This document shows, in pieces, positions 8,285 to 61,482 of a DNA stretch of 64,000 nucleotides (positions are counted from its first letter, which is position 1; each line of letters starts with the position of its first letter). Source of the stretch: Haliscomenobacter hydrossis DSM 1100. GTDB taxonomy: Bacteria > Bacteroidota > Bacteroidia > Chitinophagales > Saprospiraceae. A model generated the notes under the pieces. The model had not been told where the DNA came from, did no database searches, and was given only the letters and a program-made list of their open reading frames with translations. The stretch lies in the NCBI RefSeq assembly GCF_000212735.1, contig NC_015510.1, forward strand, positions 1,798,001 to 1,862,000, given 5' to 3'. Position numbers and translations under genes: made by a program.

Positions 8285-8505
8285 TGTTCATTTTTTCTGA
8301 GCCAAACATGAGTCATCCCGAATTTTTTAGTACAACAAAAGCGACACTTTTTTAGCACAAAGGACACAAAGGAAAGCACAAAGAACACAAGGCAGCGCTT
8401 GTTTTTGTGCACTTTGTGCTTTCCTTTGTGTCCTTTGTGCTACTTTTTTGATCCGCTTTGGTCTTTTTAAAAATTCGGGATGACTCATGTTTGGTAAAAT
8501 GAACA
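8285..8505. repeat. Nested modular palindrome (CACAAAGGA word type)
   Basis: The whole 249-base gap between the FG-GAP gene and the haloperoxidase gene is a nested inverted repeat. The outer arms are 8285-8329 and 8468-8505 (shared core AAACATGAGTCATCCCGAAT and its complement). The inner arms are 8354-8390 and 8403-8441, made of repeated words such as GCACAAAGG and GACACAAAG. The signature AAAGCGACA lies at 8338-8346, just outside the inner left arm. The transcript would fold into one long hairpin. Confidence 0.85.
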
Positions 8506-8562
8506 ATTTATTTTTTTATCGCCCCAAAAGAAATGAATCAAGTTCAAAGTAAATTTTGCCTG

Positions 8563-9876
8563 ATGAAATATTTTTTCAGCATAAGCTTCTTTTTGATTCT
8601 AACGACACACCTGTTTGCGCAGAGAGATGAGCAGGCCGCAGCCCAGTTTATCCAATCAGCTTTTCATCTTTCAGAAGTAATGCTACACGACGTGGCCAGT
8701 CCGCCAGCTGCAGCCCGCTTTTACGCCTATTCCATGTTAAGTGCCTATGAAGTATTGCAGCGCAATCAGCCCGATATGCTTGCGCTCAGTAAAAACTTTC
8801 ATGTCGTTCCTGACTTTTTTGAGGTAAGCCTTCCAACAAAATTTAACCCTGCATTTTGTGCTACCTATGCCATGCTTGAAACAGGTAGGTTGATTCTACC
8901 TTCTGGTTACATGCTGGAAGAGAAGCAACTTGAATTGATAAAGATTTTCCAGAAAAACTATAAACTGAATGTAAAGGACATTGAACCCAACCGGCAATAC
9001 GCCAATCAGGTGGCAGCTCAGATAGTGGCCCACGCAAAGAAAGATGGCTACTTTTCACTCAGCATACTCCCGCGCTACAAACCCAGCACCAAAGAAGTGG
9101 GGAGGTGGTACCCAACTCCCCCCGAATACATGAGTGCGGTAGAGCCTCAATGGAAAACCATTCGAACATTCTTTCTCGATTCAGCCAATCAATTTGTGCC
9201 CGACGCTCCTGCGCCTTTCAGTACCGAGAAAGGAAGCAGTTTTTTTAATCAGTTAGAAGAAGTGGTTGCGGTAGCTAAAAATCTTACTCCAGAACAAAAA
9301 GCCATCGCTGGATTTTGGGATTGCAATCCGTTTGCGGTTACTTACTCGGGGCATGCCGCTATGGGCGTGAAGAAAATTTCACCGGGTGGCCATTGGATTG
9401 GCATCACAGGTATTGCTTGTCGCAAGGCAAATGCCTCACTACAAAAGACAATTGAGGCACACGCACTCATCGCGCTTTCGTTGCACGATGCCTTTGTAAG
9501 CTGCTGGCACGAAAAATACCACAGCGACCGCATTCGTCCAGAATCTGCTATCAACAAATATGTAGATGAAGCGTGGCGACCACTCCTGCAAACTCCACCG
9601 TTCCCGGAATACACCAGCGGCCATAGTGTAATCTCTACCACCAGTGCCGAGGTGCTGAGTTACCTCTTCGGAGAGAACTTTGCATACGTGGACACCTCAG
9701 AGGAGTATTTTGGTTTACCGGCCAGGTCGTTCAAGTCATTTAGAGCTGCATCGCAAGAAGCTGCCATCTCTCGACTTTATGGTGGCATCCATTTTCGTGA
9801 TGCTATTGAGGCAGGCCAACGCCAGGGTGAAGCCATTGGAAAATACATAGTAGATAAAATCAAAAAACTAAATTGA
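8563..9876 (+). CDS. Vanadium haloperoxidase/PAP2-type acid phosphatase, exported
   Basis: The ATG at 8563 is preferred over 8533 because it opens a signal peptide (MKYFFSISFFLILTTHLFAQ); the product has 437 residues. The three PAP2/vanadium-haloperoxidase motifs are present: K318-x6-R325-P326, S352-G353-H354 and R404-x5-H410. These residues bind phosphate or vanadate in the family. An all-helical N-terminal half of about 280 residues precedes them, as in the vanadium-dependent haloperoxidase-like group of Bacteroidota. Whether it is a halogenating peroxidase or a phosphatase cannot be decided from the motifs. It follows the FG-GAP gene on the same strand. Confidence 0.85.
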   Translation: MKYFFSISFFLILTTHLFAQRDEQAAAQFIQSAFHLSEVMLHDVASPPAAARFYAYSMLSAYEVLQRNQPDMLALSKNFHVVPDFFEVSLPTKFNPAFCATYAMLETGRLILPSGYMLEEKQLELIKIFQKNYKLNVKDIEPNRQYANQVAAQIVAHAKKDGYFSLSILPRYKPSTKEVGRWYPTPPEYMSAVEPQWKTIRTFFLDSANQFVPDAPAPFSTEKGSSFFNQLEEVVAVAKNLTPEQKAIAGFWDCNPFAVTYSGHAAMGVKKISPGGHWIGITGIACRKANASLQKTIEAHALIALSLHDAFVSCWHEKYHSDRIRPESAINKYVDEAWRPLLQTPPFPEYTSGHSVISTTSAEVLSYLFGENFAYVDTSEEYFGLPARSFKSFRAASQEAAISRLYGGIHFRDAIEAGQRQGEAIGKYIVDKIKKLN

Positions 9877-9905
9877 GCCCGTAACAAAAACTTTACAAAT
9901 CAGCT

Positions 9906-9936
9906 CAATTATACCTCACAGACTGCGGTATAATTG
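9906..9936. terminator. Small stem-loop between haloperoxidase and cytochrome genes
   Basis: A perfect 10-bp inverted repeat (CAATTATACC / GGTATAATTG) encloses an 11-base loop, 30 bases after the haloperoxidase stop. The stem is AT-rich and lacks a clean T-run, so it may be a weak terminator or an operator for the downstream cytochrome operon. Confidence 0.4.
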
Positions 9937-9983
9937 GCATAATTTTGTATTTTCACCAACACTGTTGCCAGATAAAACGACAA

Positions 9984-12320
9984 ATGATCATGCAAGGGAA
10001 TTTCCTGAAAAAAAGCTGGCTTTGGCTGGCGGGGTTGGGTGCTATTGGCAGTATTTTATTGCTCTCTGAATGCGCCAAAGGGCCAGATGCGCTGGGCACT
10101 GCCCTACCCGATGTTGTTGATTTCAATTTCCACGTCAAGCCCATTCTTTCCGACCGCTGCTTCAAGTGTCATGGGCCAGATGCCCAAAAGCGGGAAGCCG
10201 ATCTGCGTCTCGATACCAAAGAAGGGCTTTTTCAGGCTTTGGAAAAACACAAAGACCAGTTCGTAATTGTACCGGGAAAGCCCGAAAGCAGCGAAATGTG
10301 GCGGCGTTTGATCCACGAAGATCCTGATCAATTGATGCCCCCGCCCAACAGCAACCTCAGTTTGAATGAAACCGAAAAGACCATCATTCGTCGCTGGATT
10401 GCCCAAGGGGCCAAATACCAAAAGCACTGGGCTTTTCTTGCTCCGCAAAAAGCGCCGCTGCCCAAAGTCAAGCGCAAAGGTTGGAACGATAGTCCGATCG
10501 ACCGCTGGGTACTGACCAAAATGAAGGATGTCAACCTCGAACCCAACGAACGGGAAGAATGGCCGCGCCTCATCCGCCGGGTTTGCCTGGATTTGACGGG
10601 CTTGCCCCCCACGGAGGCCGTCATGCAAAAATTCAAGGATGACGATTCTCCGGCCAATTACCGCCGATTGGTCGATTACCTGCTCAAACAGCCCTCTTTT
10701 GGGGAAAGGATGGCGGCTCACTGGCTCGATGTATCGCGATATGCCGATTCACACGGGTATCAGGACGACGGGCCCCGCACAATGTGGCCCTGGCGCGATT
10801 GGGTCATCCATGCTTTCAACACCAATATGCCTTACAACCGCTTTGTCAGTTGGCAATTGGCTGGCGATATGTTGCCCAATCCCACCAAAGAAATGCTACT
10901 GGCTACAGGTTTCAACCGCAACCACAAAATCACCCAGGAAGGTGGGGTCATTGAGGAGGAATACCGCATTGAATACGTGACCGACCGCACCAATACCTTT
11001 AGCAAAGCCTTTATGGGCCTGACCATGGAGTGCTCCAAGTGCCACGATCATAAGTACGACCCCATCACCCAAAAGGAGTATTACGAGCTGTTTTCCTTTT
11101 TCAACAGTGTACCTGAAGAAGGGCTATACGGAGATATTTCGCTCGTATCGCTGGCCGATCCGCCCCGAATGTACATCTCCAATGCCACCGTGCGCGATAC
11201 CTTGCCGTTCATCAACAAAAAACCAACAGATACGGCGGTCGTGATGATCATGCAGGAAATGCCCAAACCGCGTACCACCTATATCCTCAAACGGGGGCAA
11301 TACGATTTGCACGCCGATTCGGTCCAAAGAGGCACCCCACGTTCCGTTTTGGCTTTTGATAAAAAATTCTCCCCGAACCGGGTCGGGCTGGCCGATTGGT
11401 TGTTCAGCCCCAAGCACCCCCTCACCGCCCGGGTATTCGTCAATCGAATGTGGATGGAGTTTTTTGGGACGGGGATTGTCAAGTCTTCCGAAGATTTTGG
11501 CAACCAGGGTGAGTTGCCTACCCATCCCGAGTTACTAGACTGGATGGCCGTTGATTTCCGGGAACACAACTGGGATGTCAAACGCCTGATTCGCGAAATC
11601 GTCTTGTCGGAAACCTATCAACAATCAAACGACATCAGCAAACGCAAACAAGAGGTAGACCCTGAAAACCGCTACCTGGCCCGCGGGCCACGCATCAGGA
11701 TGAGCGCCGAGATGATTCGCGACAACTGGTTGGCTACCTCTGGTTTGCTCAATTCCGAGGTAGGCGGCCCCAGTGTAAAACCCTACCAACCCGAAGGCCT
11801 GTGGGAAGATACCAATCCTGGCCGGGGGCCTTTGATGTTTTACAAGCAAGACAAGCGGGAAAAACTGTACCGCCGAAGTCTGTATACCTTCTGGAAACGC
11901 ACCGCTCCCCCACCCTTCATGCTGACTTTTGACGCACCGATGCGCGACTATTGTGTACCCAAACGGACCAGTACCAACACGCCGCTGCAAGCCCTCAACA
12001 TGCTGAATGACCCACAAATGCTGGAATCAGCTCGTTGGTTGGCCGCGGCTTTGCTCAAAAAAACCGGTGGTGGCGAACCCGCAGTGCGCCGGGCTTTTGA
12101 ACGCATCCTGACCCGCAGCCCGGAGACTAAAGAGCTCAAACAACTACTCAGCTATTTCCAGGAACGGCGCAAGGAACTGCAAAAAGACGCCGCACGGGCT
12201 GAAAGAATGCTCCTGGTAGGTGAGGTTGCCCAAGCCAAAGGGGTAAACCCCAGCGATTGTGCAGCGCTCAGCGAAGTGGTACAAATTATTTACAACATGG
12301 ATGAAACCATCACCAAGTAA
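9984..12320 (+). CDS. PSCyt1-DUF1549-DUF1553 c-type cytochrome domain protein
   Basis: The protein has 778 residues from the ATG at 9984 (an ATG at 9990 is equally possible); both open a hydrophobic export signal (WLWLAGLGAIGSILLL) followed by SECAKG, a possible but non-standard lipobox. A planctomycete-type cytochrome c domain carries CFKCH at about residues 59-63. DUF1549 follows with a second haem-like motif, CSKCH, in LTMECSKCHDHKYDP. DUF1553 fills the C-terminal half (PLTARVFVNRMWMEFFG and LNMLNDPQ). The family is exported; its reaction is unknown. The next gene, DUF1501, begins 11 bases later, the usual partner order. It is shorter than many relatives because no concanavalin-like domain lies between the two DUFs. 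Confidence 0.9.
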   Translation: MIMQGNFLKKSWLWLAGLGAIGSILLLSECAKGPDALGTALPDVVDFNFHVKPILSDRCFKCHGPDAQKREADLRLDTKEGLFQALEKHKDQFVIVPGKPESSEMWRRLIHEDPDQLMPPPNSNLSLNETEKTIIRRWIAQGAKYQKHWAFLAPQKAPLPKVKRKGWNDSPIDRWVLTKMKDVNLEPNEREEWPRLIRRVCLDLTGLPPTEAVMQKFKDDDSPANYRRLVDYLLKQPSFGERMAAHWLDVSRYADSHGYQDDGPRTMWPWRDWVIHAFNTNMPYNRFVSWQLAGDMLPNPTKEMLLATGFNRNHKITQEGGVIEEEYRIEYVTDRTNTFSKAFMGLTMECSKCHDHKYDPITQKEYYELFSFFNSVPEEGLYGDISLVSLADPPRMYISNATVRDTLPFINKKPTDTAVVMIMQEMPKPRTTYILKRGQYDLHADSVQRGTPRSVLAFDKKFSPNRVGLADWLFSPKHPLTARVFVNRMWMEFFGTGIVKSSEDFGNQGELPTHPELLDWMAVDFREHNWDVKRLIREIVLSETYQQSNDISKRKQEVDPENRYLARGPRIRMSAEMIRDNWLATSGLLNSEVGGPSVKPYQPEGLWEDTNPGRGPLMFYKQDKREKLYRRSLYTFWKRTAPPPFMLTFDAPMRDYCVPKRTSTNTPLQALNMLNDPQMLESARWLAAALLKKTGGGEPAVRRAFERILTRSPETKELKQLLSYFQERRKELQKDAARAERMLLVGEVAQAKGVNPSDCAALSEVVQIIYNMDETITK

Positions 12321-12331
12321 TCCAACCCATC

Positions 12332-13786
12332 ATGCAAAAGGAAATTCTCGAATCAAAACTCAATATCAACCGCCGGGCTTTCTTTTCCAAAATGAGCATC
12401 GGTATCGGTTCACTGGCGCTGGGGTCACTGCTGATTCCCGACTTGTTCAAAGGCGATGAAGACGATGTTGCCGCGATGATCCCCGGCCTCTCGCATTTTG
12501 CGCCCAAGGCCAAACGGATCATTTATTTGTTCCAGTCTGGTGCGCCCTCCCAGCTCGAAACTTTTGATTACAAGCCCAATCTCCGCGCGATGTTTGGGCA
12601 GGAGCTTCCTCCATCCATCCGCCAAGGCCAGCGCCTGACGGGGATGACCAGCGGACAGACCTCTTTTCCCCTGGCGCCATCGGCCATTAACTTCAAACAA
12701 TACGGGCAAAACGGCACCTGGATCAGCGACTTTTTTCCCCACATCGGAAAAATCGCCGACGACATTTGTGTGATCCGTACGCTCAATACCGAAGCCATCA
12801 ACCACGACCCGGCGATCACTTTTTTCCAAACGGGCAATCAACAATCCGGTCGCCCCAGCATGGGTGCCTGGATGAGTTATGGCCTGGGCAGTGAAAACGA
12901 AAACCTGCCCGCTTTCATGGTACTCACCAGTCGGGGCAAAGGCAATAGCCAGGGTTTGTACGCCCACTTGTGGGGCAGTGGCTTTTTGGACTCTGTGCAC
13001 CAGGGCGTCATGCTGCGCGGGGGCAAAGATCCCGTGTTGTACCTCAAAGACCCCGAAGGCATGAGCCAGTTGGAACGTCGGCGCATGCTGGATCAAATTG
13101 CCGAGTTGAACCAAAATAGCTACGATAAAATTGGCGATCCTGAAACCATGGCCCGCATCCAGCAGTACGAAATGGCGTATCGCATGCAAACCTCGGTGCC
13201 CGAGCTGATGGACTTGAAGGATGAATCGGACTATACCGTAAAACTTTATGGTCCCGATTGTTTGGTGCCGGGCACTTACGCTTCCAATTGCTTGATGGCG
13301 CGCCGATTGGCCGAGCGCGGCGTACGTTTTATCCAACTCTACCACCAGGGCTGGGATCAGCACGGCAACTTGCCCAATGAAATGGGTGGCCAGGCCAAAG
13401 ACGTGGACCAGGCTTCGGCGGCATTGGTCACCGACCTGAAACAACGCGGACTGCTGGAAGATACCCTCGTGATCTGGGGTGGCGAGTTTGGGCGTACCGT
13501 CTACTGTCAGGGCAACTTCCAGGCCGACAATTATGGGCGCGACCACCACCCGCGTTGCTTCAGCATCTGGATGGCGGGAGGTGGAATCAAGCCGGGCATT
13601 ACTTACGGCGAAACCGACGACTTCAGCTACAACATCGTGCGCGATCCGGTACACATTCACGATTTCCAGGCCACCATCATGAATTTGATGGGCATTGATC
13701 ACGAAAAACTGATTTTCAAACACCAGGGTCGTCGTTACCGCCTTACGGATGTGAGCGGCAAGTTGGTGCCTGGAATCATAGCTTAG
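12332..13786 (+). CDS. DUF1501 family exported protein
   Basis: This 484-residue protein belongs to the DUF1501 family, an alkaline-phosphatase/sulfatase-fold group encoded beside DUF1549/DUF1553 proteins in Planctomycetes and some Bacteroidota. The N-terminus has a twin-arginine-like export signal (NRRAFFSKMSIGIGSLALG). Family landmarks include the segment around YLFQSGAPSQLETFDYKP, the stretch HQGWDQHGNLP and the late segment IWGGEFGRTVYCQG followed by GRDHHP. It is translated 11 bases after the DUF1549/1553 gene, so both should be co-expressed. The substrate and reaction are not known for the family. Confidence 0.9.
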   Translation: MQKEILESKLNINRRAFFSKMSIGIGSLALGSLLIPDLFKGDEDDVAAMIPGLSHFAPKAKRIIYLFQSGAPSQLETFDYKPNLRAMFGQELPPSIRQGQRLTGMTSGQTSFPLAPSAINFKQYGQNGTWISDFFPHIGKIADDICVIRTLNTEAINHDPAITFFQTGNQQSGRPSMGAWMSYGLGSENENLPAFMVLTSRGKGNSQGLYAHLWGSGFLDSVHQGVMLRGGKDPVLYLKDPEGMSQLERRRMLDQIAELNQNSYDKIGDPETMARIQQYEMAYRMQTSVPELMDLKDESDYTVKLYGPDCLVPGTYASNCLMARRLAERGVRFIQLYHQGWDQHGNLPNEMGGQAKDVDQASAALVTDLKQRGLLEDTLVIWGGEFGRTVYCQGNFQADNYGRDHHPRCFSIWMAGGGIKPGITYGETDDFSYNIVRDPVHIHDFQATIMNLMGIDHEKLIFKHQGRRYRLTDVSGKLVPGIIA

Positions 13787-13799
13787 ATATTGGAAAATC

Positions 13800-14036
13800 A
13801 AAGCGACATTAATGGGAACGCGGATGACGCGGATTGAGCGGATTAACGCGGATTTTGTTTTGCCTGCGGCAAAATTTTCGCCACTAAGGTAGGAAGAGAC
13901 TAAGCACTGCGAACCAAAATGGCTCCTTGGGGCTTTGTGTCTTCGTGCCAATTATTACATCATCACGCCGAAGGCGTGAAAAACCCGCGTTAATCCGCTC
14001 AATCCGCGTCATCCGCGCTCCTATTAATGTCGCTTT
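13800..14036. repeat. Modular palindrome (GCGGATGACGCGGATT word type)
   Basis: Left arm 13800-13861 and right arm 13978-14036 are long inverted repeats composed of the word GCGGAT with small insertions (GCGGATGAC, GCGGATTGA, GCGGATTAAC). The outer ends are AAAGCGACA (13800-13808) and its complement TGTCGCTTT (14028-14036). The 116-base centre holds GCCTGCGGC at 13862-13870 and a CGCCGAAGGCG mini-palindrome near 13969. It fills the gap between the DUF1501 and membrane-cytochrome genes. Confidence 0.88.
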
Positions 14037-14075
14037 AGGAAATATCCGCCGCATGCGGAAAAACAGACATCGATA

Positions 14076-16226: not shown

Positions 16227-16320
16227 GGGTTTGGGGGTTCGAGGGTTTGGGGGTTCGAGGGTTTGGGGGTTCGAGGGTTCGAGGGTTCGAGGGTTCGAGG
16301 GTTCGGGGGTTCGGGGGGTT
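16227..16320 (+). repeat. G-rich tandem repeat (16-nt then 8-nt units)
   Basis: Three units of GGGTTTGGGGGTTCGA are followed by about four units of GGGTTCGA and degenerate copies. It starts directly after the stop codon of the membrane-cytochrome gene. Runs of three to six G at short spacing on the plus strand fit a possible G-quadruplex; it may also help end transcription. Confidence 0.9.
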
Positions 16321-20296: not shown

Positions 20297-22201
20297 ATGG
20301 AGAATGAGTTGCAAGAATTGATCGATATTTCTGAGTTACTGAAAATCGAAAAAAAGGAGGACTTCGAACAACACCGCAAGCTGATGGATAGCCTAAGCCC
20401 TGAACAGCGGCGGGCCAAGGGCTTGGCATGGTATCCATTGAATGTGGTTCAACAAGGCTACACCATTGGTGAACGGGCTTTTGTAGTGGTTGAACGCACC
20501 CAGGGCAAGGGACAGGAGCACCAATTCAGGTCAGGTAAAACCGTGCGTTTTTATACCCAACAAGCCGGAGTACACAACCCCGAGCGCAATGGGGTCATCT
20601 ATTACGTGGACAAAGACAAAATGCGCATTATCCTGAATACCCGCGACTTGCCCGACTGGATGGGCATGGGTCAACTCTCCGTAGACATCCTATTTGACGA
20701 GCGCACCTATATTGAAATGGAAAAGGCCATGCATAAAGTCATTTCTGCTACCAAAGGCCGCATTCAAGAATTGCGTTCGGTGCTTTTGGGGATAAAGCCT
20801 GCCCATTTTACGCCCTTAGACATGCCCATCAATATTCCAGCGCTTAATCCTTCGCAAAACCTTGCCGTCAATCAAATTTTGGCGGCCCAAGATGTAGCGG
20901 TTATCCACGGCCCTCCCGGAACTGGCAAAACTACTACCCTGGTGCAAGCCATCAAATTGTTGGCCGAAAGAGAAAAAACGGTCCTGGTCACGGCTCCAAG
21001 CAATACCGCAGTGGATTTGTTGAGTGAAAAATTGGCGGAGCTAGACCTGCGGGTGGTGCGCATTGGGAACATCTCGCGGATAGATGAGAGCATTTTGCGC
21101 CATACCCTGGAGTACCAAATCTCTCAACACCCCGATAGTAAAAACGTCAAAAAAGTCAAAATTCAGGCGGCAGATTACCGCAGACAGGCCAATCGACTGC
21201 GTAGCAAACGTGGATATGAAGCCTATGAAGAGCGTAAACGCCTCGAACAAGAGGCCTCCGAACTCTCTGCTTGGGCCAACTCTCTAGAACAACGCCTGGT
21301 AGACATGATTTTGGACGAGGCTCAGGTCATCACCTGTACCCTCGTTGGTGCCGCGCACCCTGTGTTGGATCAGCGTAAATTTCGTACCGCCATCGTCGAT
21401 GAAGCAGCCCAGGCCCTGGAGCCTGCTACCTGGATTCCGATTACCAAGGCCTCGAAGTTGGTATTGACAGGTGATCCTTTTCAATTGCCGCCCACGGTTA
21501 AGTCACAGGAAGCAGCCAAAAAAGGCTTCAACATCACCATGATTGAAAAATGCTTGAAACGCCTCCAGCAGGTGAACCTGCTCAACATTCAATACCGCAT
21601 GAATGAAGGCATCATGGGGTTCAGCAATCGGCAATTTTACAACAATGAATTGATGGCAGCGCCCGAGGTGAAAGACCATCGTCTGGATATTGCGGCAGAT
21701 GCCCCAGTTATTTTTATCGATACTGCGGGCTGTGGTTTTGATGAAAAAGTTCACCATGCCTACCAGAGCAAGTACAATCCCGAGGAATTTCAGGTATTGC
21801 GAGAGCACTTGTACCAGATTGCCGAAGCCTTTTTAGAAAAAATCCCGCCCTCTATCGCCATTATTTCTCCCTATCGGGAACAAGCCTTACACATGGAAGA
21901 TGAACTCAAGGATGATCCCATGGTGCGCAAATTGGATCTAACGATCAATACCATCGATGGTTTTCAAGGGCAAGAAAAAGACCTGGTATTTATATCACTG
22001 GTGCGTTCCAATCCGAAAGGAGAAATTGGTTTCTTGAGCGATTACCGCCGCATGAATGTAGCCATGACCCGTGCCCGCAAACAACTCATCATTGTGGGAG
22101 ACAGCGCCACGATTGGCAACAACAAGTTTTATCGGGACTTCCTCGAGTACTGTGAGGTGGTTGGAGAGTATCGGAGTGCCTGGGAGTATATGAAGAGTTA
22201 A
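20297..22201 (+). CDS. Superfamily 1 helicase, IGHMBP2/Upf1-like
   Basis: The ATG at 20297 (MENELQELIDISELLKIEKK) is chosen because the upstream extension to 20204 is encoded by a repeat element; the product has 634 residues. Walker A is GPPGTGKTT (205-213), Walker B is IVDEAAQALEP (D368, E369), motif III is LTGDPFQLPPTV, motif V is TIDGFQGQEKDLVFISLVRSN without its last residue and motif VI is NVAMTRARKQLIIVGD. This is the bacterial branch of the Smubp-2/Dna2/Upf1 group, 5'-to-3' RNA/DNA helicases. A charged helical insertion (about 290-330) lies between motifs I and II. The gene stands alone. Confidence 0.9.
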   Translation: MENELQELIDISELLKIEKKEDFEQHRKLMDSLSPEQRRAKGLAWYPLNVVQQGYTIGERAFVVVERTQGKGQEHQFRSGKTVRFYTQQAGVHNPERNGVIYYVDKDKMRIILNTRDLPDWMGMGQLSVDILFDERTYIEMEKAMHKVISATKGRIQELRSVLLGIKPAHFTPLDMPINIPALNPSQNLAVNQILAAQDVAVIHGPPGTGKTTTLVQAIKLLAEREKTVLVTAPSNTAVDLLSEKLAELDLRVVRIGNISRIDESILRHTLEYQISQHPDSKNVKKVKIQAADYRRQANRLRSKRGYEAYEERKRLEQEASELSAWANSLEQRLVDMILDEAQVITCTLVGAAHPVLDQRKFRTAIVDEAAQALEPATWIPITKASKLVLTGDPFQLPPTVKSQEAAKKGFNITMIEKCLKRLQQVNLLNIQYRMNEGIMGFSNRQFYNNELMAAPEVKDHRLDIAADAPVIFIDTAGCGFDEKVHHAYQSKYNPEEFQVLREHLYQIAEAFLEKIPPSIAIISPYREQALHMEDELKDDPMVRKLDLTINTIDGFQGQEKDLVFISLVRSNPKGEIGFLSDYRRMNVAMTRARKQLIIVGDSATIGNNKFYRDFLEYCEVVGEYRSAWEYMKS

Positions 22202-22229
22202 GCGAAAAGCGAAAAGCGAAAAGCGAAAA
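22199..22229 (+). repeat. AGCGAAA tandem repeat at helicase stop
   Basis: Four perfect 7-base units of AGCGAAA start at the stop codon of the helicase gene. A partial complement (TAGCTTTTAGCTATTCGCT) lies at 22300-22319, outside the terminator, so the whole gap is again a palindrome of tandem words. Confidence 0.8.
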
Positions 22230-22249
22230 AATACAGGTAATAAGGTAAA

Positions 22250-22300
22250 AAACAAAGGCTCCGGCATCGATGAATTCGATATGCCGGAGCCTTTGTTTTT
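22250..22300. terminator. Bidirectional terminator between helicase and gldN
   Basis: AAACAAAGGCTCCGGCAT (22250-22267) pairs with ATGCCGGAGCCTTTGTTT (from 22281) across a short loop. The GC-rich stem is bordered by A- and T-runs, so it can work for both convergent genes. Confidence 0.85.
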
Positions 22301-22317
22301 AGCTTTTAGCTATTCGC

Positions 22318-23187
22318 TTAATAAGTCCAAAGGTCGTGTTCCAGGTTGAAAATTTCCTGCTTGATCTTGTCTGCTTCCATCAGCAAGTCACGACCAGTGA
22401 ATTGATCTTGCAAGCGCAAGTCTTTCACGTTGGAAGTTTTGTAAATGTAGCTAGAGAAATAGCGCATTTCGAATACGTCCTCCCAAGTCATTGGAGCGCC
22501 ATCGTTTTGATCATTGAAGATCTTTTCTTTGGCCAACAATTCGCGGGCATCTGGGTAATAAATCCAGAAAAGAACGTTTTCCCCCACTTTATCTCCTGTA
22601 GATGTTTTTACTGGCAATACCGGCGCAATACCAAGGATACGCACCTGCATGGTAGACGATTCTTTGTCGAAGAACCAGATTTCTTTCACCCGGATCCGCT
22701 GAACATCTGCGTTGATGTCCACGTCACTCTTGATGATTTGTTGCTTTTGCTCGTACGTAACGGGGTCAGTCACCATTACCGTATCGATTTTGTAAAGCAG
22801 GCCATTCACTGCTGAAGTATCCAAACGGGTTTTGAATTCTTCATCAGCAAAGATGCGCAAAGGCTTTTCTTTGTTGTTGATGGCTTCCAGCAAAATTGAT
22901 ACGAATGGGCGTTTAGGATAAGCGAACGGAAGGTTCATTTTTTCCCTTACGTCAATGATCCGCCAAATACGCTTCTTCCAGAAGATGTCTGCTTCACGGG
23001 GTTGATCGTAAGGAAGCACTCGTTTTTTGGCCGTAATGCTGCTTTCAACCACATCGTCGATTGGATTGGGTAAACCATCAACTGGCCCCGACTCCGTTTG
23101 GATGATATCGAGCTGCTGAGCCGCCAGGGGGCCGACAGCGATACACAGGATAAAAAGAAGACCGAATAATTTGGCGGCCATTTTCAT
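22318..23187 (-). CDS. gldN: Type IX secretion/gliding protein GldN (PorN)
   Basis: The ATG at 23187 (or 23181) is preferred: it starts a signal peptide (MKMAAKLFGLLFILCIAVG, cleaved near LAAQQ), while the longer frame to 23262 has a non-signal N-terminus. The 289-residue periplasmic protein shows GldN/PorN landmarks: KKRIWRIIDVREKMNLPFAY, VKEIWFFDKESSTMQVRILG and WEDVFEMRYFSSYIYK. In P. gingivalis PorN forms the periplasmic ring with the lipoprotein PorK. It is the last gene of the cluster, followed by a strong terminator. Confidence 0.95.
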   Translation of the reverse strand: MKMAAKLFGLLFILCIAVGPLAAQQLDIIQTESGPVDGLPNPIDDVVESSITAKKRVLPYDQPREADIFWKKRIWRIIDVREKMNLPFAYPKRPFVSILLEAINNKEKPLRIFADEEFKTRLDTSAVNGLLYKIDTVMVTDPVTYEQKQQIIKSDVDINADVQRIRVKEIWFFDKESSTMQVRILGIAPVLPVKTSTGDKVGENVLFWIYYPDARELLAKEKIFNDQNDGAPMTWEDVFEMRYFSSYIYKTSNVKDLRLQDQFTGRDLLMEADKIKQEIFNLEHDLWTY

Positions 23188-48005: not shown

Positions 48006-48411
48006 GGTTTCTCAGTTTAGGTGATGAAATATTTGGGTTAAGAGGATCTTCTGTAAGACAATGAATAAGCGGTTCCGGTTTCCTTTTAGGATGCGATAAG
48101 ACTAGAAGTCCTAACATATTTTGGTACCGAAATCCACTAAAGAACGATTCCCACGTGCGATAGGTTGCCTAAGTGTGACAATATTTTTGACAAACCGGAA
48201 TGAATTGACGCTAAAGCGCCTTGAATTGACGATAAAGCGCCTTGAATTGTAAATGGAATTTTCAAAAACCTTTACTGCCGCATGCGGCGGATTTTTTCAC
48301 CACAGATTCACACAGATGTTCACAGATTTTATGGACATGACAAAAAATCTGTGCGAATCTGTGCGAATCTGTGCGAATCTGTGTGAATCTGTGGTGAATT
48401 ATGCTAAATTC
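48006..48411. other. Repeat-filled gap between ACP and LanC-like genes
   Basis: No gene is seen. Two 22-base units (GAATTGACGCTAAAGCGCCT type) lie at about 48202-48245, followed by GCCGCATGCGGC at 48278-48289 and a modular palindrome up to 48401. Confidence 0.75.
48291..48401. repeat. Modular palindrome (GAATCTGTGC word type)
   Basis: Left arm 48291-48330 (TTTTTTCACCACAGATTCAC then ACAGATGTTCACAGATTTT) faces right arm 48342-48401, where the 10-base word GAATCTGTGC is repeated four times and ends in CTGTGGTGAATT. The right arm is expanded relative to the left one. It resembles the element at 18201-18300. Confidence 0.85.
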
Positions 48412-51439: not shown

Positions 51440-51590
51440 AAAGCGACATGATTGAAAACGGATGAAACGGACTAAACGGATAAAAACGGATTTTTTTCCG
51501 CCTGCGGCGGATAAGGGCGAGCCGAAGGCGAGTCAAAGTCCGTTCCAATCCGTTTAGTCCGTTTCATCCGTTTTACAATCATGTCGCTTT
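51440..51590. repeat. Modular palindrome (ACGGATGAAACGGACTAA word type)
   Basis: Left arm 51440-51490 and right arm 51539-51590 are near-exact inverted repeats of ACGGAT/ACGGACTAA words. The ends are AAAGCGACA (51440-51448) and TGTCGCTTT (51582-51590). The centre has CCGCCTGCGGCGG (51498-51510) and GGCGAGCCGAAGGCGAG. Layout matches the element at 13800-14036 although the arm words differ. Confidence 0.9.
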
Positions 51591-52076: not shown

Positions 52077-52165
52077 AAAGCGACAGGATTTAAAACGGAC
52101 TAAACGGACTAAACGGATAACAACGGATTTTTTCCGCCTGCGGCGGATAAGGACGAGCCGAAGGC
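52077..52165 (+). repeat. Half copy of the ACGGACTAA-type modular palindrome
   Basis: AAAGCGACA (52077-52085), the ACGGACTAA words and the centre with CCGCCTGCGGCGG (52134-52146) followed by GGACGAGCCGAAGGC match the left half of 51440-51590 in order. The right arm is absent. The remaining gap to 52296 holds nothing recognisable. Confidence 0.85.
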
Positions 52166-53808: not shown

Positions 53809-53844
53809 TTTCGTTGATTATGTCGGTACGCAGAAATTGTTTTT

Positions 53845-54723: not shown

Positions 54724-54890
54724 CGGCCGTATAGCGAGTGTTTAACCAACCTAACTTCCAACAAAAATAAGTCAATATTCCTTTGAAAAAGTACAAAATT
54801 CGCCGCCAGGCATAAATGGAAGTTATAAAGTTTCGAATCTCGGATATTTGTAATGGTCTTTTCTAATCTTTAAAATTTAATCATCGGATC

Positions 54891-57800
54891 ATGGAACAAA
54901 ATCAACTCATTGGTCACCTTTGGGCTACCAGCTTTCCCCGAGGTGCGTTACTAGCCGGCTTACTATTGTTTTTTTCGAGCCTGGTGATGGCTCAACAAGT
55001 TTCGGGAACCGTTAGTGACAAAACTTCCGGTCAGGGCATTCCCGGTGTACTGGTGCTGGTCAAAGGTACCACTACGGGAGCAGTTACCGATATTGATGGG
55101 AAGTTCAACATTAATGCCCGCAGTAGTGACACCCTCTCCTTCAGTTCAACGGGTTTCACGACTGTTGAAGAATACGTGGGTAACCGTACCCAAATTACCG
55201 TTTCAATGGATGCAGCCGTGTTGGAATTGGGCGAAATGGTGGTTACGGCCCTGGGTATCCGCAAGGAATCAAAAAAATTGGGCTATGCCACCACTACGGT
55301 TGGCGGTGAAGCCCTTACCGAAAACCGTTCCCCCAATTTCATGAATACCCTGCAAGGCAAAGTCGCCGGGGTCAACATTTCCGGTTTGGGGACTGGCCCG
55401 GCGGGTACTTCCAAAATCCGTATCCGGGGCCAGTCTTCCATTTCCGGGCAAAACAATCCACTGATCGTTGTCAATGGTGTACCCATCGACAACACCAACT
55501 TTGGCACCAACCCGGGCAACGCCGCCGCTGACAACTCCATCGGAGTACGTGGAGGGGGCAACACCTCCGACGGAGGCGACGGGCTTTCCAGCATCAACCC
55601 CGATGACATCGAAAGCATGACCATCCTCAAAGGAGCCACTGCGGCGGCCTTGTACGGCTCGCGTGCCAAGGATGGGGTCATCATGATCACCACCAAAACC
55701 CGAGGAAAAAGCAAAGGCATTGGCGTGAGTTTTAACTCCAACTACACCAATGAAACACCGCTCGATTTTACCGATTACCAATACGAGTACGGACAAGGGG
55801 AAAATGGCGTACGGCCCACCGCACCCAACCCCACTTCCGGGCAATGGTCTTTTGGGGAAAAATTCCAACCGGGCATGACCCAGGTCTTGTTTGATGGCGT
55901 GACGGTTCCGTACGAGCCACAATTCGATCGGGTGAGAAACTTTTTCCAAAATGGATCTAACCTGACCAATACCATCTCGCTCGCGGCGGCCACCGACAAA
56001 GGAGGTTTCAACCTGTCTTTTGCCAATATGGACAACCAAGGGATCATCAGCAACAACAAGTTCAACCGCAAAACGGTCAATCTGGGCTTTGCTTACGACT
56101 TGTCCAGCAAACTCAGTTTTACCGGAAACGTCAACTATTCCAACGAATACAACCAGAATCCACCCAACATTGCCAACCAGGACAACTCCATTCCAACCGC
56201 GCTCTACAACCTGGCTAATTCTATGCCGCTGAGTCTTTTGGATGAGAAAAAATACGATGCGGCTGGCAACGAATTTGTTTATTCCCGCTTCAGAAACCGT
56301 ACCAACCCTTATTGGACGATCGCTGAACAATTCCAAAACATCCGCCGCGATCGCCTTTTTGGCAACCTGGCCCTTAAGTACAACCTTACGCCCTGGTTGT
56401 TTGTACAAGGCCGTATAGGCCAGGATTACTGGTCTCGTGATCAGGATTTCAACAACTTCCCTACCGGTCACGCTTCAATAGCAGCAGCGCCAGCGGGCTT
56501 TGAGAATGGAACCTATACCCAGGAATCGCGCAGGTTCCGCGAGACCAACATGGACTTGTTGATTTCGGGTAGCCGTACCTTTGGAAAGTTTGGCATTGAC
56601 TTCAACGTGGGCGGCAACCAAATGTACCGTCGTTCCGATTTGAATTCAGTGCTGGTGAACGATTTTGTGGTTCGCGACCTGTACACGGTCATGAATGGCC
56701 GGGTGAAAGACCCCATCTACGGTTTGTCGGAAAGAGCGGTGAACTCAGTGTACGGATCGGCTGAATTTTCGTACAAAAGTTTCTTGTACCTCAACGTAAC
56801 CGCCCGTAACGACTGGTTCTCGACCCTTTCTGAGGAAAATCGTAGCATTTCATATCCATCTGTATCGGGTAGTTATGTTTTTTCTGAATCATTTGGCACC
56901 CTGCCCAAATGGTTGAAATTTGGAAAACTGAGAGCTGCCTACGCCGAGGTGGGTAGTGATACCGACGTTGCGCCTTATGCCAATAACCTTTTTTATGGCA
57001 TCAACGCCAACTTGTACCCCAATCCAGCGGGTGCAGCACAGCCCGTGGGTGGTTCACAAGGCAATACTTTACCCAATGCTGGCTTGCGCCCCATGCGCGC
57101 TACCGAAGCAGAAATTGGTTTGGAGTTGAGAATGTTTGACAACCGGGTCTCCCTTGATGCTGCAGTTTACCAAAAAACGACCAACGATCAAATTGTATCG
57201 GCGCAGATTTCTGATGCTTCTGGTTTTACCAATACCCTGATCAACAGTGGCAAAAGCCGCAACAATGGGGTGGAAATGTTGCTCAATTTGGTGCCCATCA
57301 AAAGCAGCAACTTCCGCTGGGATTTGAGCTTCAATGGATCGTACAACATCACCAAAGTACTGAGTTTATTGACCGATACACCCGGTGAAAGAATTACCGT
57401 GGGGACGCACGTCTTCAATGGTGAACTGCGCCAGGTGGTGGGTCAGGAAATGGGCCAAATCTACGGCTTCGGCTACCGCAGAGATGCTCAAGGTCGGCAA
57501 ATATTCGGCGGCAATGGTATTCCATTGCGCACCACCGACCTGATTTCGTTTGGCTCAGCCTTGCCCAAATGGGTTGGCGGGATCAACAACGGGTTTGTGT
57601 ACAAAAACCTGAGTGTTTCTTTCCTGATCGATTTCAAACTGGGCAACATGATGCTTTCAGGTACCAACTTTAACGCTTACCGCCACGGTCTCCACAAAGC
57701 TACCCTACAAGGCAGAGCGGAAGGCGGCGTAGTGGGTGTTGGCGTAAACGATAAAGGAGAAACCAACACCGTAAAAGCCAACGTTCAGCCTTATTGGGAA

Positions 57801-58088
57801 GTAGTCCGCTCATTGGCTTTGATTGAGCCGGTGGTGTACAACGGAGGTTACTGGAAATTGCGTCAAATCACTGCTGGTTACGATTTTGGCAAACATTTGC
57901 CCGCCAACTCTGCGATCAAAGGTTTAAAACTGAGCTTTGTGGCCAACAACGTCCTGATGCTCAAAAAATGGGTGGACAACATTGATCCAGAAACCTTTGG
58001 TTACAGCTCCGACAACCTGATTGGTATGGAATCTACGGGCTTGCCTTCTACCCGGAGTTTGGGCTTTAACCTCAATGTTCAATTCTAA
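54891..58088 (+). CDS. SusC/RagA-type TonB-dependent outer membrane receptor
   Basis: This 1065-residue receptor has a signal segment (GALLAGLLLFFSSLVMAQ), a carboxypeptidase-regulatory-like domain (QVSGTVSDKTSGQGIPGVLV), a plug with IESMTILKGATAAALYGSRA and the 22-strand barrel ending NLNVQF. Compared with the SusC at 126-3230 it shares the pre-plug and plug motifs but diverges in barrel loops. It forms an operon with the following susD (11-base gap) under the AraC regulator. It should import the sugar or conjugate later phosphorylated by the FGGY kinases. Confidence 0.95.
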   Translation: MEQNQLIGHLWATSFPRGALLAGLLLFFSSLVMAQQVSGTVSDKTSGQGIPGVLVLVKGTTTGAVTDIDGKFNINARSSDTLSFSSTGFTTVEEYVGNRTQITVSMDAAVLELGEMVVTALGIRKESKKLGYATTTVGGEALTENRSPNFMNTLQGKVAGVNISGLGTGPAGTSKIRIRGQSSISGQNNPLIVVNGVPIDNTNFGTNPGNAAADNSIGVRGGGNTSDGGDGLSSINPDDIESMTILKGATAAALYGSRAKDGVIMITTKTRGKSKGIGVSFNSNYTNETPLDFTDYQYEYGQGENGVRPTAPNPTSGQWSFGEKFQPGMTQVLFDGVTVPYEPQFDRVRNFFQNGSNLTNTISLAAATDKGGFNLSFANMDNQGIISNNKFNRKTVNLGFAYDLSSKLSFTGNVNYSNEYNQNPPNIANQDNSIPTALYNLANSMPLSLLDEKKYDAAGNEFVYSRFRNRTNPYWTIAEQFQNIRRDRLFGNLALKYNLTPWLFVQGRIGQDYWSRDQDFNNFPTGHASIAAAPAGFENGTYTQESRRFRETNMDLLISGSRTFGKFGIDFNVGGNQMYRRSDLNSVLVNDFVVRDLYTVMNGRVKDPIYGLSERAVNSVYGSAEFSYKSFLYLNVTARNDWFSTLSEENRSISYPSVSGSYVFSESFGTLPKWLKFGKLRAAYAEVGSDTDVAPYANNLFYGINANLYPNPAGAAQPVGGSQGNTLPNAGLRPMRATEAEIGLELRMFDNRVSLDAAVYQKTTNDQIVSAQISDASGFTNTLINSGKSRNNGVEMLLNLVPIKSSNFRWDLSFNGSYNITKVLSLLTDTPGERITVGTHVFNGELRQVVGQEMGQIYGFGYRRDAQGRQIFGGNGIPLRTTDLISFGSALPKWVGGINNGFVYKNLSVSFLIDFKLGNMMLSGTNFNAYRHGLHKATLQGRAEGGVVGVGVNDKGETNTVKANVQPYWEVVRSLALIEPVVYNGGYWKLRQITAGYDFGKHLPANSAIKGLKLSFVANNVLMLKKWVDNIDPETFGYSSDNLIGMESTGLPSTRSLGFNLNVQF

Positions 58089-58099
58089 AAAGTTTAGAC

Positions 58100-59620
58100 A
58101 TGAAAAAGCGTTTTCACTATATTTTTCTGATGCTTGTGCTGCTGATGACCGTGGCCTGTGATGAAGGTTTTGACGACCTCAACATCAATCAAACGGCTGC
58201 AACCAGTATCAATCCGGTTTTTTCCCTCAACAATGCGGTCATCAATGCTTCTTTTGTATCCACTATCGTACAAAATGAAATCGGGATTGTGCAACAAATG
58301 GTCTCGCCCAACTCGGGGGTGCTTACTGGTGCCAATTTTAACCAGGATAACCGTGACGGAACTTCACAAAACTGGATTCGTTACTACCGAACCGTCATTC
58401 GCTTCTCTGTCGACGTCCTAGAATCAACCAAGGATCAACCGACGCGTAGCAACCTGTATAACATGGCACGCATCTGGAAGGCTCATGCCATGATGGTAAT
58501 GACCGATTCTTATGGGGATGTGCCCTACACCGAAGCGGGTAAAGGCTACTCCGAACAGGTGTTGTTGCCAAAATACGACACACAACAGGCCATTTACAAT
58601 GACATCATTAAGGAATTGACCGAGGCTACCGCCGCACTTGATGCCGCCAAAACCGTGGAAACCGCCGATGTTTTGTACGGTGGAAACATCGCGCTGTGGA
58701 AAAAATTGGGCAATTCCCTGCTCCTCCGTGCGGGCATGCGCCTGAGCAAGGTAGATGCCGCACTGGCTCAATCAACCGTGCAAAAAGCCGTTCAAGGAGC
58801 CTTAATGGAAGTAAATGCCGACAATTGTGTGATCCGGCACGACGCCAACTACACCAACCAGGTTGGCAACATGTTGAACGCCACCGAAGCCAACAACTTT
58901 TATTTGGCGGCACCCTTTGCCAATCACCTGAAAAACACCAACGACCCACGATTGGGTTCGATTGCCGTGCGGTACGTAGGGGCCAAATCGGGTCCCGAGC
59001 AAAACGCAGCGAGGGCCAACATTGATCCAGCGGTGCAAATTGGCATGCCCTTTGGGTTCGACAACAGTGGTATCGTTGGCGAAGCCGCTAAAGCCGGATT
59101 GGCCAGTTTTTACGACTATTCGCAAGTGGACCGCACCCGTATGGTGAAAAACACCGCGCCCATGTTTTTGGTGACGGCAGCCCAAACCCAACTCTTGCTG
59201 GCTGAAGCCATTCAACGCGGTTGGGCAACGGGTTCGGCAGAACAAGCCTATCAAAAGGGCATTCGTTTGCACATGGAGCAAATGGCCTTATACGATGCCA
59301 GATCAGCTATCGCTGGTAGTGCGATTGATGCCTACATTGCGGCCAATCCATACGATGCCACCAAGGCTCGGGAGCAAATCAATACCCAGTACTGGATTGC
59401 GTCTTTCCTGAATGGCCCCGAGGCTTTTGCCAATTTCCGCCGCAGTGGATTCCCGGTGCTCACGCCGAATCCATTCCCTGGCAAAGCCATCAAAGGGAAT
59501 TTCATCAACCGTTTGACGTACCCCAACTCCGAAATTTCAGTCAATAAGGCCAACGTAGACGCAGCCATTGCTCGTCAAGGTGCCGATGACCTGGACACCA
59601 AAGTTTGGTGGGATAAGTAG
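58100..59620 (+). CDS. SusD/RagB family outer membrane lipoprotein (SusD-like_2 type)
   Basis: This 506-residue lipoprotein has its acylated Cys at residue 20 (LLMTVACDEGFDDLNIN). It shares with the SusD at 3.2 kb the segments VMTDSYGDVPYTEAGKGYSE, ALWKKLGNSLLLRAGMRLSK and AQTQLLLAEAIQRGWATGSA, all of the SusD-like_2 family. It is the substrate-binding lid of the SusC encoded directly before it. Confidence 0.94.
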   Translation: MKKRFHYIFLMLVLLMTVACDEGFDDLNINQTAATSINPVFSLNNAVINASFVSTIVQNEIGIVQQMVSPNSGVLTGANFNQDNRDGTSQNWIRYYRTVIRFSVDVLESTKDQPTRSNLYNMARIWKAHAMMVMTDSYGDVPYTEAGKGYSEQVLLPKYDTQQAIYNDIIKELTEATAALDAAKTVETADVLYGGNIALWKKLGNSLLLRAGMRLSKVDAALAQSTVQKAVQGALMEVNADNCVIRHDANYTNQVGNMLNATEANNFYLAAPFANHLKNTNDPRLGSIAVRYVGAKSGPEQNAARANIDPAVQIGMPFGFDNSGIVGEAAKAGLASFYDYSQVDRTRMVKNTAPMFLVTAAQTQLLLAEAIQRGWATGSAEQAYQKGIRLHMEQMALYDARSAIAGSAIDAYIAANPYDATKAREQINTQYWIASFLNGPEAFANFRRSGFPVLTPNPFPGKAIKGNFINRLTYPNSEISVNKANVDAAIARQGADDLDTKVWWDK

Positions 59621-59621
59621 G

Positions 59622-59832
59622 TTGGAAAAGTTGATGAGGGGTTGATGGGGGTTGATGGGGGTTGATAAAGGTTGATAAAGGTTGATAATGGTTGATAATG
59701 GTTGATACCGTAATATCAACCCTCATCAACTCCCATCAACCATTATCAACCTTTTATCACCCCTCATCAACCCTTTATCAACCTCCATTAACCCTTTATC
59801 AACTTTTCATCAAGCTCCATCAACCTTTTCAT
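59622..59832. repeat. Palindromic array of GTTGATNNNG words
   Basis: Left part 59622-59711 consists of about nine 10-12-base words of the type GGTTGATGGG, GGTTGATAAA and GGTTGATAAT. Right part 59715-59832 consists of the complementary words (CATCAACCC, TTATCAACC, CCATCAACC). The two halves fold on each other with several possible registers. It fills the gap between susD and the kinase gene. Confidence 0.9.
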
Positions 59833-59922
59833 AAACTCTAATAACTTTGCCGAGCTTCTCCTGAGCGTTCCAATTTGCGACTTTGGAAAAACCAAAGGGA
59901 GAAACTGCAATTGCATCCCATC

Positions 59923-61344
59923 ATGGCTCAATATGTTGGCATAGATATTGGAACCACTGCAACCAAAGCGGTGGTTTTTAGTGGCAAAGGTCAGGTCTTG
60001 TTTCAAGTAACCCGCGACTATGAAATGTACCATCCGCAGCCCAGCTGGAGCATTCAAAAGCCCGCCGAACTGCTGGATGCGGTACTGGATTGTATCCGTA
60101 GTGCTACCCAAAACCGCAATATTGCCTTTATTGCCTTCAGCTCGGCCATGCACAGCCTGCTATTGGTTGATGAAGCTGGCACTCCCCTCACCGATTGTAT
60201 CCTCTGGGCCGATAACCGCGCTGCTGAACAAGCAGAACAACTGCAAGCCTCTCCTGAAGGCTGGTCGATTTATCAAAAAACCGGCATTCCAATCCATTCG
60301 TTTAGTCCCTTGACCAAATTGCTGTGGTTTAAAGCCCAAGAGCCCTGCCTTTTTCAACGTGCCCATAAGTTCATCAGCGCCAAAGAATACATCTGGCATC
60401 AACTCACCGGTGCTTATCAGATAGATTCCTCGATGGCCTCGGGCACAGGTTTGATGCATTTGCAAACCCTGCAATGGGATGCTGATATTCTCGATTTTTT
60501 GGGCATTCAACCCGCTCAGCTCTCCAGCATTGTCTCTCCTTACCATTGCACCAGGGGACTGGATGGGCAACACACCTTCATCATCGGTGCGGGTGATGGG
60601 CCGCTGGCCAGTTTGGGTACTGGTGCCATGCAACCCGGCAAAATGGCCCTGACCATTGGTACCAGCGGTGCAGTGCGTTTGCCTGTGACGCAACCGACCA
60701 TCGACCCCCAGATGCGCACCCAATGCTACCACCTGGCTGGGGATCAATACCTGAGTTTGGGGGCAGTGAACAACGGTGCTGTGGTTTTACAGTGGTTGAA
60801 AGAAAGTGTGCTGCGCAGCGATGTGTCTTACGAAACCCTGTTTGAACAGGCGGCAACGGTAGCCGCAGGCTCAGATGGGCTATTGTTTATGCCCTATCTG
60901 TTGGGCGAAAGGGCACCCATCTGGGATGCTGGGGCCAAAGGCAGCATCATTGGACTGACCATCAATCACCAGCAAGCACATTTTGTACGCGCGGCCTTGG
61001 AAGGTATTGTGCTGGGGTTGCGGCACATTGCCGAAGTGCTGGTACCTGATGCAACTGCCTTGCAACAAATTGAACTCAAAGTCAGTGGTGGCTTCGCCAA
61101 AAGTGAATTGTGGCTGCAAGTGGTAGCCGATGTTTTTCAAATGCGGGTGGCGCTTTCGCAAACGGTGGAAGGTTCTGCCTGGGGTGCGGTGCTCATCGGG
61201 TTCAAATCCCTGGGCATTGAATACACCGAATTGCCGCAGGACGAGCAGATTTTTCTCCCCAATCCCGATCATGCGCAGGTGTACGCTGCGGCTTTTACGC
61301 GGTTCAAACAGGTTTATCCGCTGCTGAATGGGCTTGCTCGATGA
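59923..61344 (+). CDS. FGGY family carbohydrate kinase (gluconokinase/xylulokinase-like)
   Basis: The ATG at 59923 opens MAQYVGIDIGTTATKAVVFS, the canonical phosphate loop, so the longer frame is rejected; the product has 473 residues. CILWADNRAAEQAE, LLFMPYLLGERAPIWDAGAK and VSGGFAKSELWLQVVADVFQ are family landmarks. It phosphorylates a sugar or sugar acid in the cytoplasm. With the kinase at 52.3 kb it is one of two paralogues flanking the AraC-SusCD locus; this one has the intact active-site loop. Confidence 0.93.
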   Translation: MAQYVGIDIGTTATKAVVFSGKGQVLFQVTRDYEMYHPQPSWSIQKPAELLDAVLDCIRSATQNRNIAFIAFSSAMHSLLLVDEAGTPLTDCILWADNRAAEQAEQLQASPEGWSIYQKTGIPIHSFSPLTKLLWFKAQEPCLFQRAHKFISAKEYIWHQLTGAYQIDSSMASGTGLMHLQTLQWDADILDFLGIQPAQLSSIVSPYHCTRGLDGQHTFIIGAGDGPLASLGTGAMQPGKMALTIGTSGAVRLPVTQPTIDPQMRTQCYHLAGDQYLSLGAVNNGAVVLQWLKESVLRSDVSYETLFEQAATVAAGSDGLLFMPYLLGERAPIWDAGAKGSIIGLTINHQQAHFVRAALEGIVLGLRHIAEVLVPDATALQQIELKVSGGFAKSELWLQVVADVFQMRVALSQTVEGSAWGAVLIGFKSLGIEYTELPQDEQIFLPNPDHAQVYAAAFTRFKQVYPLLNGLAR

Positions 61345-61380
61345 GGCTCTTGCTTGGAGCCTTCGGCTCTGTCTATAAAT

Positions 61381-61482
61381 TTAATGGGAGCGCGGATGAC
61401 GCGGATTGAGCGGATTTACGCTGATTAAATCCGTGTAAACCCGCTCAATCCGCGTCATCCGCGCTCCCATTGTTGTCGCTTT
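61381..61482. repeat. Modular palindrome (GCGGATGACGCGGATT word type), short form
   Basis: AATGGGAGCGCGGATGACGC begins the left arm (61383-61425) and the exact complement ends the right arm (61428-61471), with a very short loop. The right end continues to TGTCGCTTT (61474-61482). Words match the element at 13800-14036, 47 kb away. It separates two convergent genes. Confidence 0.9.

Follow-up and report, generated by a model that had tools for sequence, protein, structure and literature searches.

Four described systems come closest to the elements reported here, which are palindromes of the Haliscomenobacter hydrossis chromosome (8,371,686 bp; whole genome 8,771,651 bp) that carry the nine-letter end AAAGCGACA/TGTCGCTTT and lie in a window of 64,000 nt, the whole stretch of DNA analysed (bases 1798001-1862000). 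The BOX, RUP and SPRITE repeats of Streptococcus pneumoniae are, in the excerpted account of PMC3049150, likewise small non-coding stem-loop repeats, and BOX resembles our elements in holding a variable tandem middle between fixed ends; unlike these repeats, the elements described here have arms of tandem words in inverted order and one end common to unrelated interiors, and against the three families of S. pneumoniae stand 19 word types by our own list. REP/REPIN (repetitive extragenic palindromic) sequences with their RAYT transposases, as far as the extracts of PMC3733652 describe them, share with our elements a palindromic, non-coding make-up and an intergenic position, mostly after genes or between convergent genes, and 102 inverted repeats found in 462 kb of this genome are placed in the same way (intergenic, after genes, palindromic). 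Our elements differ from them in being longer (~100-300 bp), in having interiors that are not conserved and in that the motif occurs at none of seven Y1 transposase loci. Miniature inverted-repeat transposable elements (MITEs) are matched in behaviour by one outer shell, GTAGTGGGGC...GCCCC (clean insertion, 3-base repeat), and seemingly by a CACTGGACATTTTT shell (one case); unlike in MITEs, the interior palindromes differ between copies of one shell and the AAAGCGACA elements lack a clear target duplication. Finally, template-switch (quasipalindrome) mutation, as described in PMC8604942 and PMC8794818, is similar in its arm homogenisation and loop inversion, and differs in that conserved copies here show no sign of it and arm equality seems to arise at copying. 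Among papers judged mostly on their titles and abstract openings, no description of word palindromes with exchangeable ends was recognised.

We hold, with about even confidence, that these are small non-coding insertion elements with exchangeable word-palindrome interiors and a lineage-specific end, AAAGCGACA/TGTCGCTTT, whose arms are made equal at copying. The AAAGCGACA elements would be one level in a nest of palindromic elements that extends over the genome; these would insert into each other's loops and into post-gene gaps and be replaced there faster than genes diverge. New copies may arise as units through a single-stranded hairpin or template-switch step that copies one arm onto the other; such copying would equalise the arms at birth and could flip the loop, and the arms would then decay independently.

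Motif-ended palindromes of the window

An earlier note on this DNA had described four palindromes (8.3, 13.8, 51.4 and 61.4 kb) and one half element (52.1 kb) that share the motif as their boundary. We confirmed this observation, with corrections. All motif positions are exact (left 8338, 13800, 51440 and 52077; right 14028, 51582 and 61474), the four inverted repeats are present, and the sequence at 52077 is half an element, truncated beyond its central hairpins. Behind the shared end stand different word arms, giving three palindrome types: A with CACAAAGGA words, B with GCGGATGAC words and C with ACGGATTGA words. The motif bounds the element at 13.8 and 51.4 kb, as proposed; at 8.3 kb it lies 72 bases inside a larger element, and at 61.4 kb the right motif is present and the left one absent. 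The arms, held to match perfectly, are in fact 95% (8.3 kb), 95% (13.8 kb), 83% (51.4 kb) and 93% (61.4 kb) complementary. The features are as follows.

8266..8525, no strand: whole inserted element at 8.3 kb, with GCAGTGGGGC...GCCCC outer shell, AAACATGAGTCATCCCGAA second shell, AAAGCGACA and CACAAAGGA-word arms
8338..8346, plus strand: AAAGCGACA, internal in the 8.3 kb element; its right partner is a degenerate CCGCTTT
8353..8442, no strand: type A CACAAAGGA-word palindrome, arms 8353-8390 and 8405-8442, 95% complementary
13800..14036, no strand: type B element ending in AAAGCGACA and TGTCGCTTT, with arms of GCGGATGAC words at 13800-13856 and 13980-14036
51440..51590, no strand: type C element with the motif at both ends, arms of ACGGATTGA words, and GCCTGCGGC and GCCGAAGGC hairpins in its loop
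52077..52165, plus strand: type C element, left half only; it matches another copy at 85% over 94 bases
61383..61482, no strand: type B element in which the left motif is absent; arms at 61383-61426 and 61428-61471, right end at 61474-61482

The motif and the wider palindrome population

Motif counts cover the five genomes of the genus (G000, H. hydrossis itself, to G004) and 25 farther relatives, G007 and G017 among them. In the window there are seven exact copies of AAAGCGACA against 0.66 expected, and the H. hydrossis genome holds 249 sites against 54 of the reversed word. Four of the five genus genomes show such an excess (motif/reversed: G000 249/54, G001 179/40, G002 274/78, G004 185/82), and G003 shows none over the reversed word (81/107). 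Among the 25 relatives the motif is in excess in G017 (112/30) and slightly so in G007 (77/53). We rejected the excess in G017, another genus, as a wider use of the same end: most printed rows, which are plus-strand matches in 30 fetched loci (L168-L197) of which by eye none leads into word arms, belong to a different dispersed repeat, GGGTGATGCCCAAAGCGACAAAATGAAAT, and this repeat seems to account for the excess.

The earlier note had named beforehand a genome-wide check, namely whether the motif is commoner beside palindromes than by chance, and it is. Besides the count of 249 against 54, in 462 contiguous kb picked without regard to AAAGCGACA, 13 of 17 sites lie at most 30 bp from an inverted repeat (the distance within which a site was counted), and the repeats with their 30-bp margins make up 3.7% of the sequence; neither of the two reversed-word sites lies at one. 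The base two before AAAGCGACA is C in 34 of 44 cases. The motif stands on the outer ends of only 8 of the 102 inverted repeats in these 462 kb, so most palindromes are without it, and near 34 of 272 in a wider sample of 1,251,361 bases, ~0.79 Mb of which were chosen around motif sites. The AAAGCGACA/TGTCGCTTT-ended palindromes are a minority of a larger palindrome system.

All 272 repeats were located by a direct scan (an earlier blastn-based script gave 25 only), and the same scan found no inverted repeat in a 200-kb mononucleotide shuffle. By crude open reading frame calls, 90 of the 102 long inverted repeats of the 462 kb are intergenic, and 67 of 158 gaps of at least 100 bp (42%) hold one. 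Their share varies with orientation, being 23/37 in convergent, 35/82 in co-directional and 9/39 in divergent gaps; in co-directional gaps (47 repeats), the median distance is 26 bp from the upstream stop to the repeat and 91 bp from the repeat to the following start. Arms of at least 24 nt are periodic in 94/216 cases versus 4/216 shuffled, with periods mostly of 7-10. A list of 19 word types, drawn up by eye and perhaps including words related to one another, covers 178 of the 272 repeats, and 17 of the words are present in the 462 kb; the other 94 repeats, REP-like hairpins among them, match no listed word. Many post-gene gaps hold long palindromes, often word-built and nested. The position after stops and the preference for convergent over divergent gaps suit an explanation by selection at the RNA level, in which any strong post-stop stem-loop serves as a terminator or mRNA protector, so that sequence could change and pairing stay; we return to it with the arm comparisons below.

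Exchangeable interiors, nesting and insertion

Inward from AAAGCGACA come CACAAAGGA words after a T-rich spacer (type A), GCGGATGAC words after AATGGGA (type B) or ACGGATTGA words after GATTGAAA (type C). Among 77 distinct motif sites, mostly from material chosen around the motif, 45 have arms scoring at least 15 (some elements being counted from both ends) and 32 do not, and several of these 32 sit in loops of GTTGAGG-word palindromes. In longer B copies an inner palindrome of CACGAAG words is surrounded by small GCCTGCGGC and GCCGAAGGC hairpins; in the loop at 13.8 kb, small hairpins accompany what by eye is a degraded inner palindrome of CACTAAG/CTTCGTG. At four loci (L089, L090, L102, L114) from another family of the phylum, B-like arms have small hairpins following the second word, in some copies in both arms. 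The type C element of 51.4 kb has many copies in G000, G001 and G002, and few among the G004 matches listed; one H. hydrossis locus (L156, G000:C1:3640800-3645000) is a tandem array of several type C elements.

Nesting is seen at several levels. Of 19 CACGACG-word palindromes found, five carry type C in their loop, part of which is a socket formed by a left hairpin of GAGGCTTCGCCTC type and a right one of ACGCCGAAGGCGT type. Read from the printed flanks of 40 two-ended rows (these include the L156 array, two loci counted twice and one chance pair), this socket holds C in five and B in one (L140); hence, one socket accepts either. At another locus (L144) the CACTGGACATTTTT shell with CACAAAG words breaks a CACGACG-palindrome loop, apparently with a 9-base repeat. 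In the window, the 8.3 kb element consists of an A palindrome inside ATGAGTCATCCCGAA arms inside the GCAGTGGGGC...GCCCC shell.

This 8.3 kb element is an insertion: it takes the place of the last codons of the upstream gene, and its site is empty in G002 and G003, two of the four sister genomes. The gene in question, coding for an FG-GAP protein (window 4960-8283), ends in a stop codon supplied by the insertion, so that the protein end differs from that in G002. A whole copy, 97% identical, lies at G000:C1:4486779-4487040. The related shell GTAGTGGGGC...GCCCC, with another interior, is cleanly inserted in G002 with TTA on both sides, and G004 is empty there. The outer shell type thus looks like an ordinary mobile element, contrary to what the earlier note had held of these palindromes. 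The elements have inverted ends and are too short to encode a transposase.

Such behaviour is what ordinary MITEs would show, moved by DDE transposases acting on their ends, with a few masters per family, arms that match by descent and AAAGCGACA as the binding site. We regard this as a possible explanation, though a distinctly less probable one than our own. The shell with its clean insertion and 3-base repeat fits it, as do the copies of the 8.3 kb element, several of which are 89-99% alike (others 79-88%) and several of which share arm mismatches. It is at odds with three unrelated interiors behind one 9-base end and with the lack of a clear target duplication at the AAAGCGACA elements. Moreover, eight linker triplets other than the commonest are, by eye, matched in both arms of some B copy, so that many symmetrical masters would be needed.

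Turnover at orthologous gaps

We made 31 gap comparisons between H. hydrossis and its sisters, in regions partly chosen by the motif and leaving out gaps that align. In 23 of them, covering 12 gaps, the H. hydrossis gap holds a palindrome; the relative has an unrelated palindrome in 14 (two of these being loci selected for the C element in the relative), none above the threshold in nine and the same one in none. In the other eight the H. hydrossis gap is without a palindrome and so is that of the relative (8/8); since many of these gaps are short or coding, and 42% of long gaps are occupied anyway, they give no clean test of socket conservation. Within the window, the gap orthologous to 13.8 kb has CTAAGGTG-word palindromes in G002 and G004, and the 8.3 kb locus of G001 and G004 has GGGGC/GCCCC ends with ATGAGTCAT-type arms ~30 bp away and a different interior.

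Between two sister species with flanks ~91% identical, about half of the palindromes that could be placed are conserved, and most others face a different palindrome. From G002 to G004, 24 of 46 palindromes were placed (12 conserved, 9 replaced, 3 gone), and from G004 to G002, 22 of 37 (10 conserved, 7 replaced, 5 gone). By eye, one of the nine counted as replaced (C85 59804, ATTTCGGG words) is an element that both species have in common, and two of the nine share a gap; some of the replacements are REP-like rather than word-built. In one orthologous pair, L118 of G000 and L140 of G004, the loop is inverted, L118 being the best match of the L140 loop.

Joint variation and independent change of the arms

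Between copies, the two arms of an element vary together. The distance from an arm to its own partner is 0.105/0.101/0.107 for types A (n=16), B (n=36) and C (n=15), versus 0.154/0.146/0.138 to the arms of other elements, and 0, 0 and 40 of 20000 permutations, which leave the kinship of copies in place, reach this result. Most joint changes of type B are at columns 4, 6, 8, 15, 19 and 25-27, with hardly any in the inner columns 36-45. Several CACAAAGGA element copies have identical unmatched letters between their arms, which indicates that they were copied as units.

The interpretation in the earlier note, read here as palindromes being written and their arms corrected in place by slippage and template switching in replication, is partly supported. 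Joint variation, the periodic arms, the one possible loop inversion and the missing RNA bias described below all agree with it, and template switching is known, from the portions of PMC8604942 and PMC8794818 consulted, to homogenise arms and invert loops. Joint variation between copies stands; correction in place is not supported. The earlier note had proposed to look for joint arm changes at orthologous gaps, and conserved sister copies change independently. For the 12 palindromes of G002 that are conserved in G004, we counted over 294 aligned pairs 26 left-only and 20 right-only changes (46 single-arm) against 2 joint changes, where 2.13 are expected, and none of these restores pairing. The reverse set (241 pairs) has 11 left-only, 7 right-only and 1 joint change (0.41 expected), 1 being restoring; in an earlier smaller set, 8 of 9 joint changes came from one CTAAGGTG/CTTAGGTG replacement. 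Hence, in-place upkeep of arm equality is not seen. A process in place would also leave the shared ends, empty sites and dispersed families unexplained; we consider it improbable.

The RNA-level explanation introduced above fares no better and appears unlikely to us. In the sense RNA of 132 elements from co-directional gaps, G-U mismatches show no excess over A-C mismatches (84 versus 86, a comparison without a positive control, with two tRNAs only), and the pairs lost in conserved copies are broken by changes in single arms. We therefore rejected the maintenance of RNA stems as the main force. Rfam gave no match at gathering scores in the window, and a terminator scan of 46-62 kb, limited to loops of 3-8 bases, found 22 sites against 22.1 in shuffles and none on the elements at 51.4, 52.1 and 61.4 kb, whose long loops escape it. 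Given joint variation between copies, along with its absence in conserved copies and the lack of G-U bias, the arms are probably equalised at the DNA level when a copy is made, and neither corrected in place nor kept as RNA stems. If so, long inverted repeats would have a testable origin, with arms equalised when copied and not maintained later. It would also follow that, where dispersed repeats are aligned, co-variation in a stem need not point to a functional RNA.

Target sites and the search for a mobiliser

Several results weigh against our reading of copied, equal-armed insertion elements. The joint variation could also be explained by many masters, each already symmetrical; the joint-arm test itself took ungapped arms by likeness to the consensus, and when arms were read from the motif inward, loops included, the signal was weak (241, 806 and 2501 of 10000 permutations for 21 A, 15 B and 4 C elements). 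Two other copies resemble L118 more closely than L140 does, which makes the inversion of the loop uncertain, and in a second inverted pair (L134/L137) the two are not each other's nearest, so that replacement is likelier there. For elements that end in AAAGCGACA itself, we found no clean empty site. Among the 40 two-ended rows, the AAAGCGACA elements show no clear target duplication over shuffles: the best 3-base duplication occurs in 4/40 rows (reached in 30/300 shuffles), the best 4-base one in 3/40 (15/300) and the best 5-base one in 2/40 (14/300). Moreover, AAAGCGACA and the A, B and C arm patterns are absent within 1.5 kb of all seven Y1 transposase (PF01797) loci, as counted in the H. 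hydrossis genome only.

The lack of a clear duplication would be compatible with mobility as a single-strand hairpin or with recombination at short ends that the elements share. The RAYT-type transposase family moves as single strands without target duplication, which would agree with it. We rejected a RAYT-borne REP, the motif and arm patterns being missing at every Y1 locus of this genome; two of these loci contain a single copy of the shorter core AGCGACA, and at least five of the seven carry other REP-like repeat types. A coding parent element was looked for as a convergent motif pair 0.6-3 kb apart, and none was seen by eye among the first 100 of the 249 places. The mobiliser that our reading presupposes was not found.

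Words and ends in other taxa

An 18-mer of the B arm occurs in 12 of 296 Bacteroidota genomes, including that of H. hydrossis, and its reversed word in none. At 25 loci printed from other genomes there is no AAAGCGACA in the 60 bases before this 18-mer; four have AATAGC instead. A scan of genome contigs with the A pattern gave 12 stretches. Contigs of Saprospiraceae metagenome-assembled genomes and one record named Chitinophagales have AAAGCGACA or a close variant before A words, so the end is not strictly confined to the searched genomes of the genus. Two contigs of one Spirochaetia genome have AGAGAAGAATTTA as the end of A words, and in Desulfobacterales and Bacteroidales records A words have no facing arm within the 170 bases printed. 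The same words with different ends across taxa indicate that ends and words are uncoupled. The earlier note had allowed that the vocabularies might belong to unrelated families with separate histories; this is partly so, as A and B words occur without AAAGCGACA in other families and phyla, which points to separate histories.

One could go further and suppose a single cellular process that builds word palindromes and mounts them in interchangeable sockets, be they AAAGCGACA ends, MITE shells or loops. In that case distant phyla would have the same words with different ends because they share the process and not the sequence; we find this doubtful. Should our own reading hold, a bacterial genome would carry a dense, layered population of small elements whose ends and interiors evolve separately, and a post-gene site would keep changing its resident palindrome.

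Other features of the window

Further word palindromes of the window are without the motif.

48296..48398, no strand: CACAGATTC-word palindrome lacking AAAGCGACA; G002 and G004 have a short gap here that holds no palindrome
59625..59808, no strand: GTTGATAAG-word palindrome, shortly 3' of a stop codon
20149..20284, no strand: GTTGAAGAG-word palindrome, from the inverted-repeat scan
22198..22321, no strand: AGCGAAA-word palindrome, from the inverted-repeat scan

The gap at 59.6 kb holds GGTGTGA words in G002 and G004 and a GGGGCAACC repeat in G001. Elsewhere, in G002 (L159, contig C14, ~2150-2380), a ACAAGTCTCCAGACTTGT-type element lies between direct repeats of ~20 bases of a gene end. At the window end (63229-63690 and 63741-64000), a Y1 (IS200-like) transposase gene adjoins an array of CCCCGAAGGGGTGACAT hairpins, and the two probably represent a RAYT with its own REPs.

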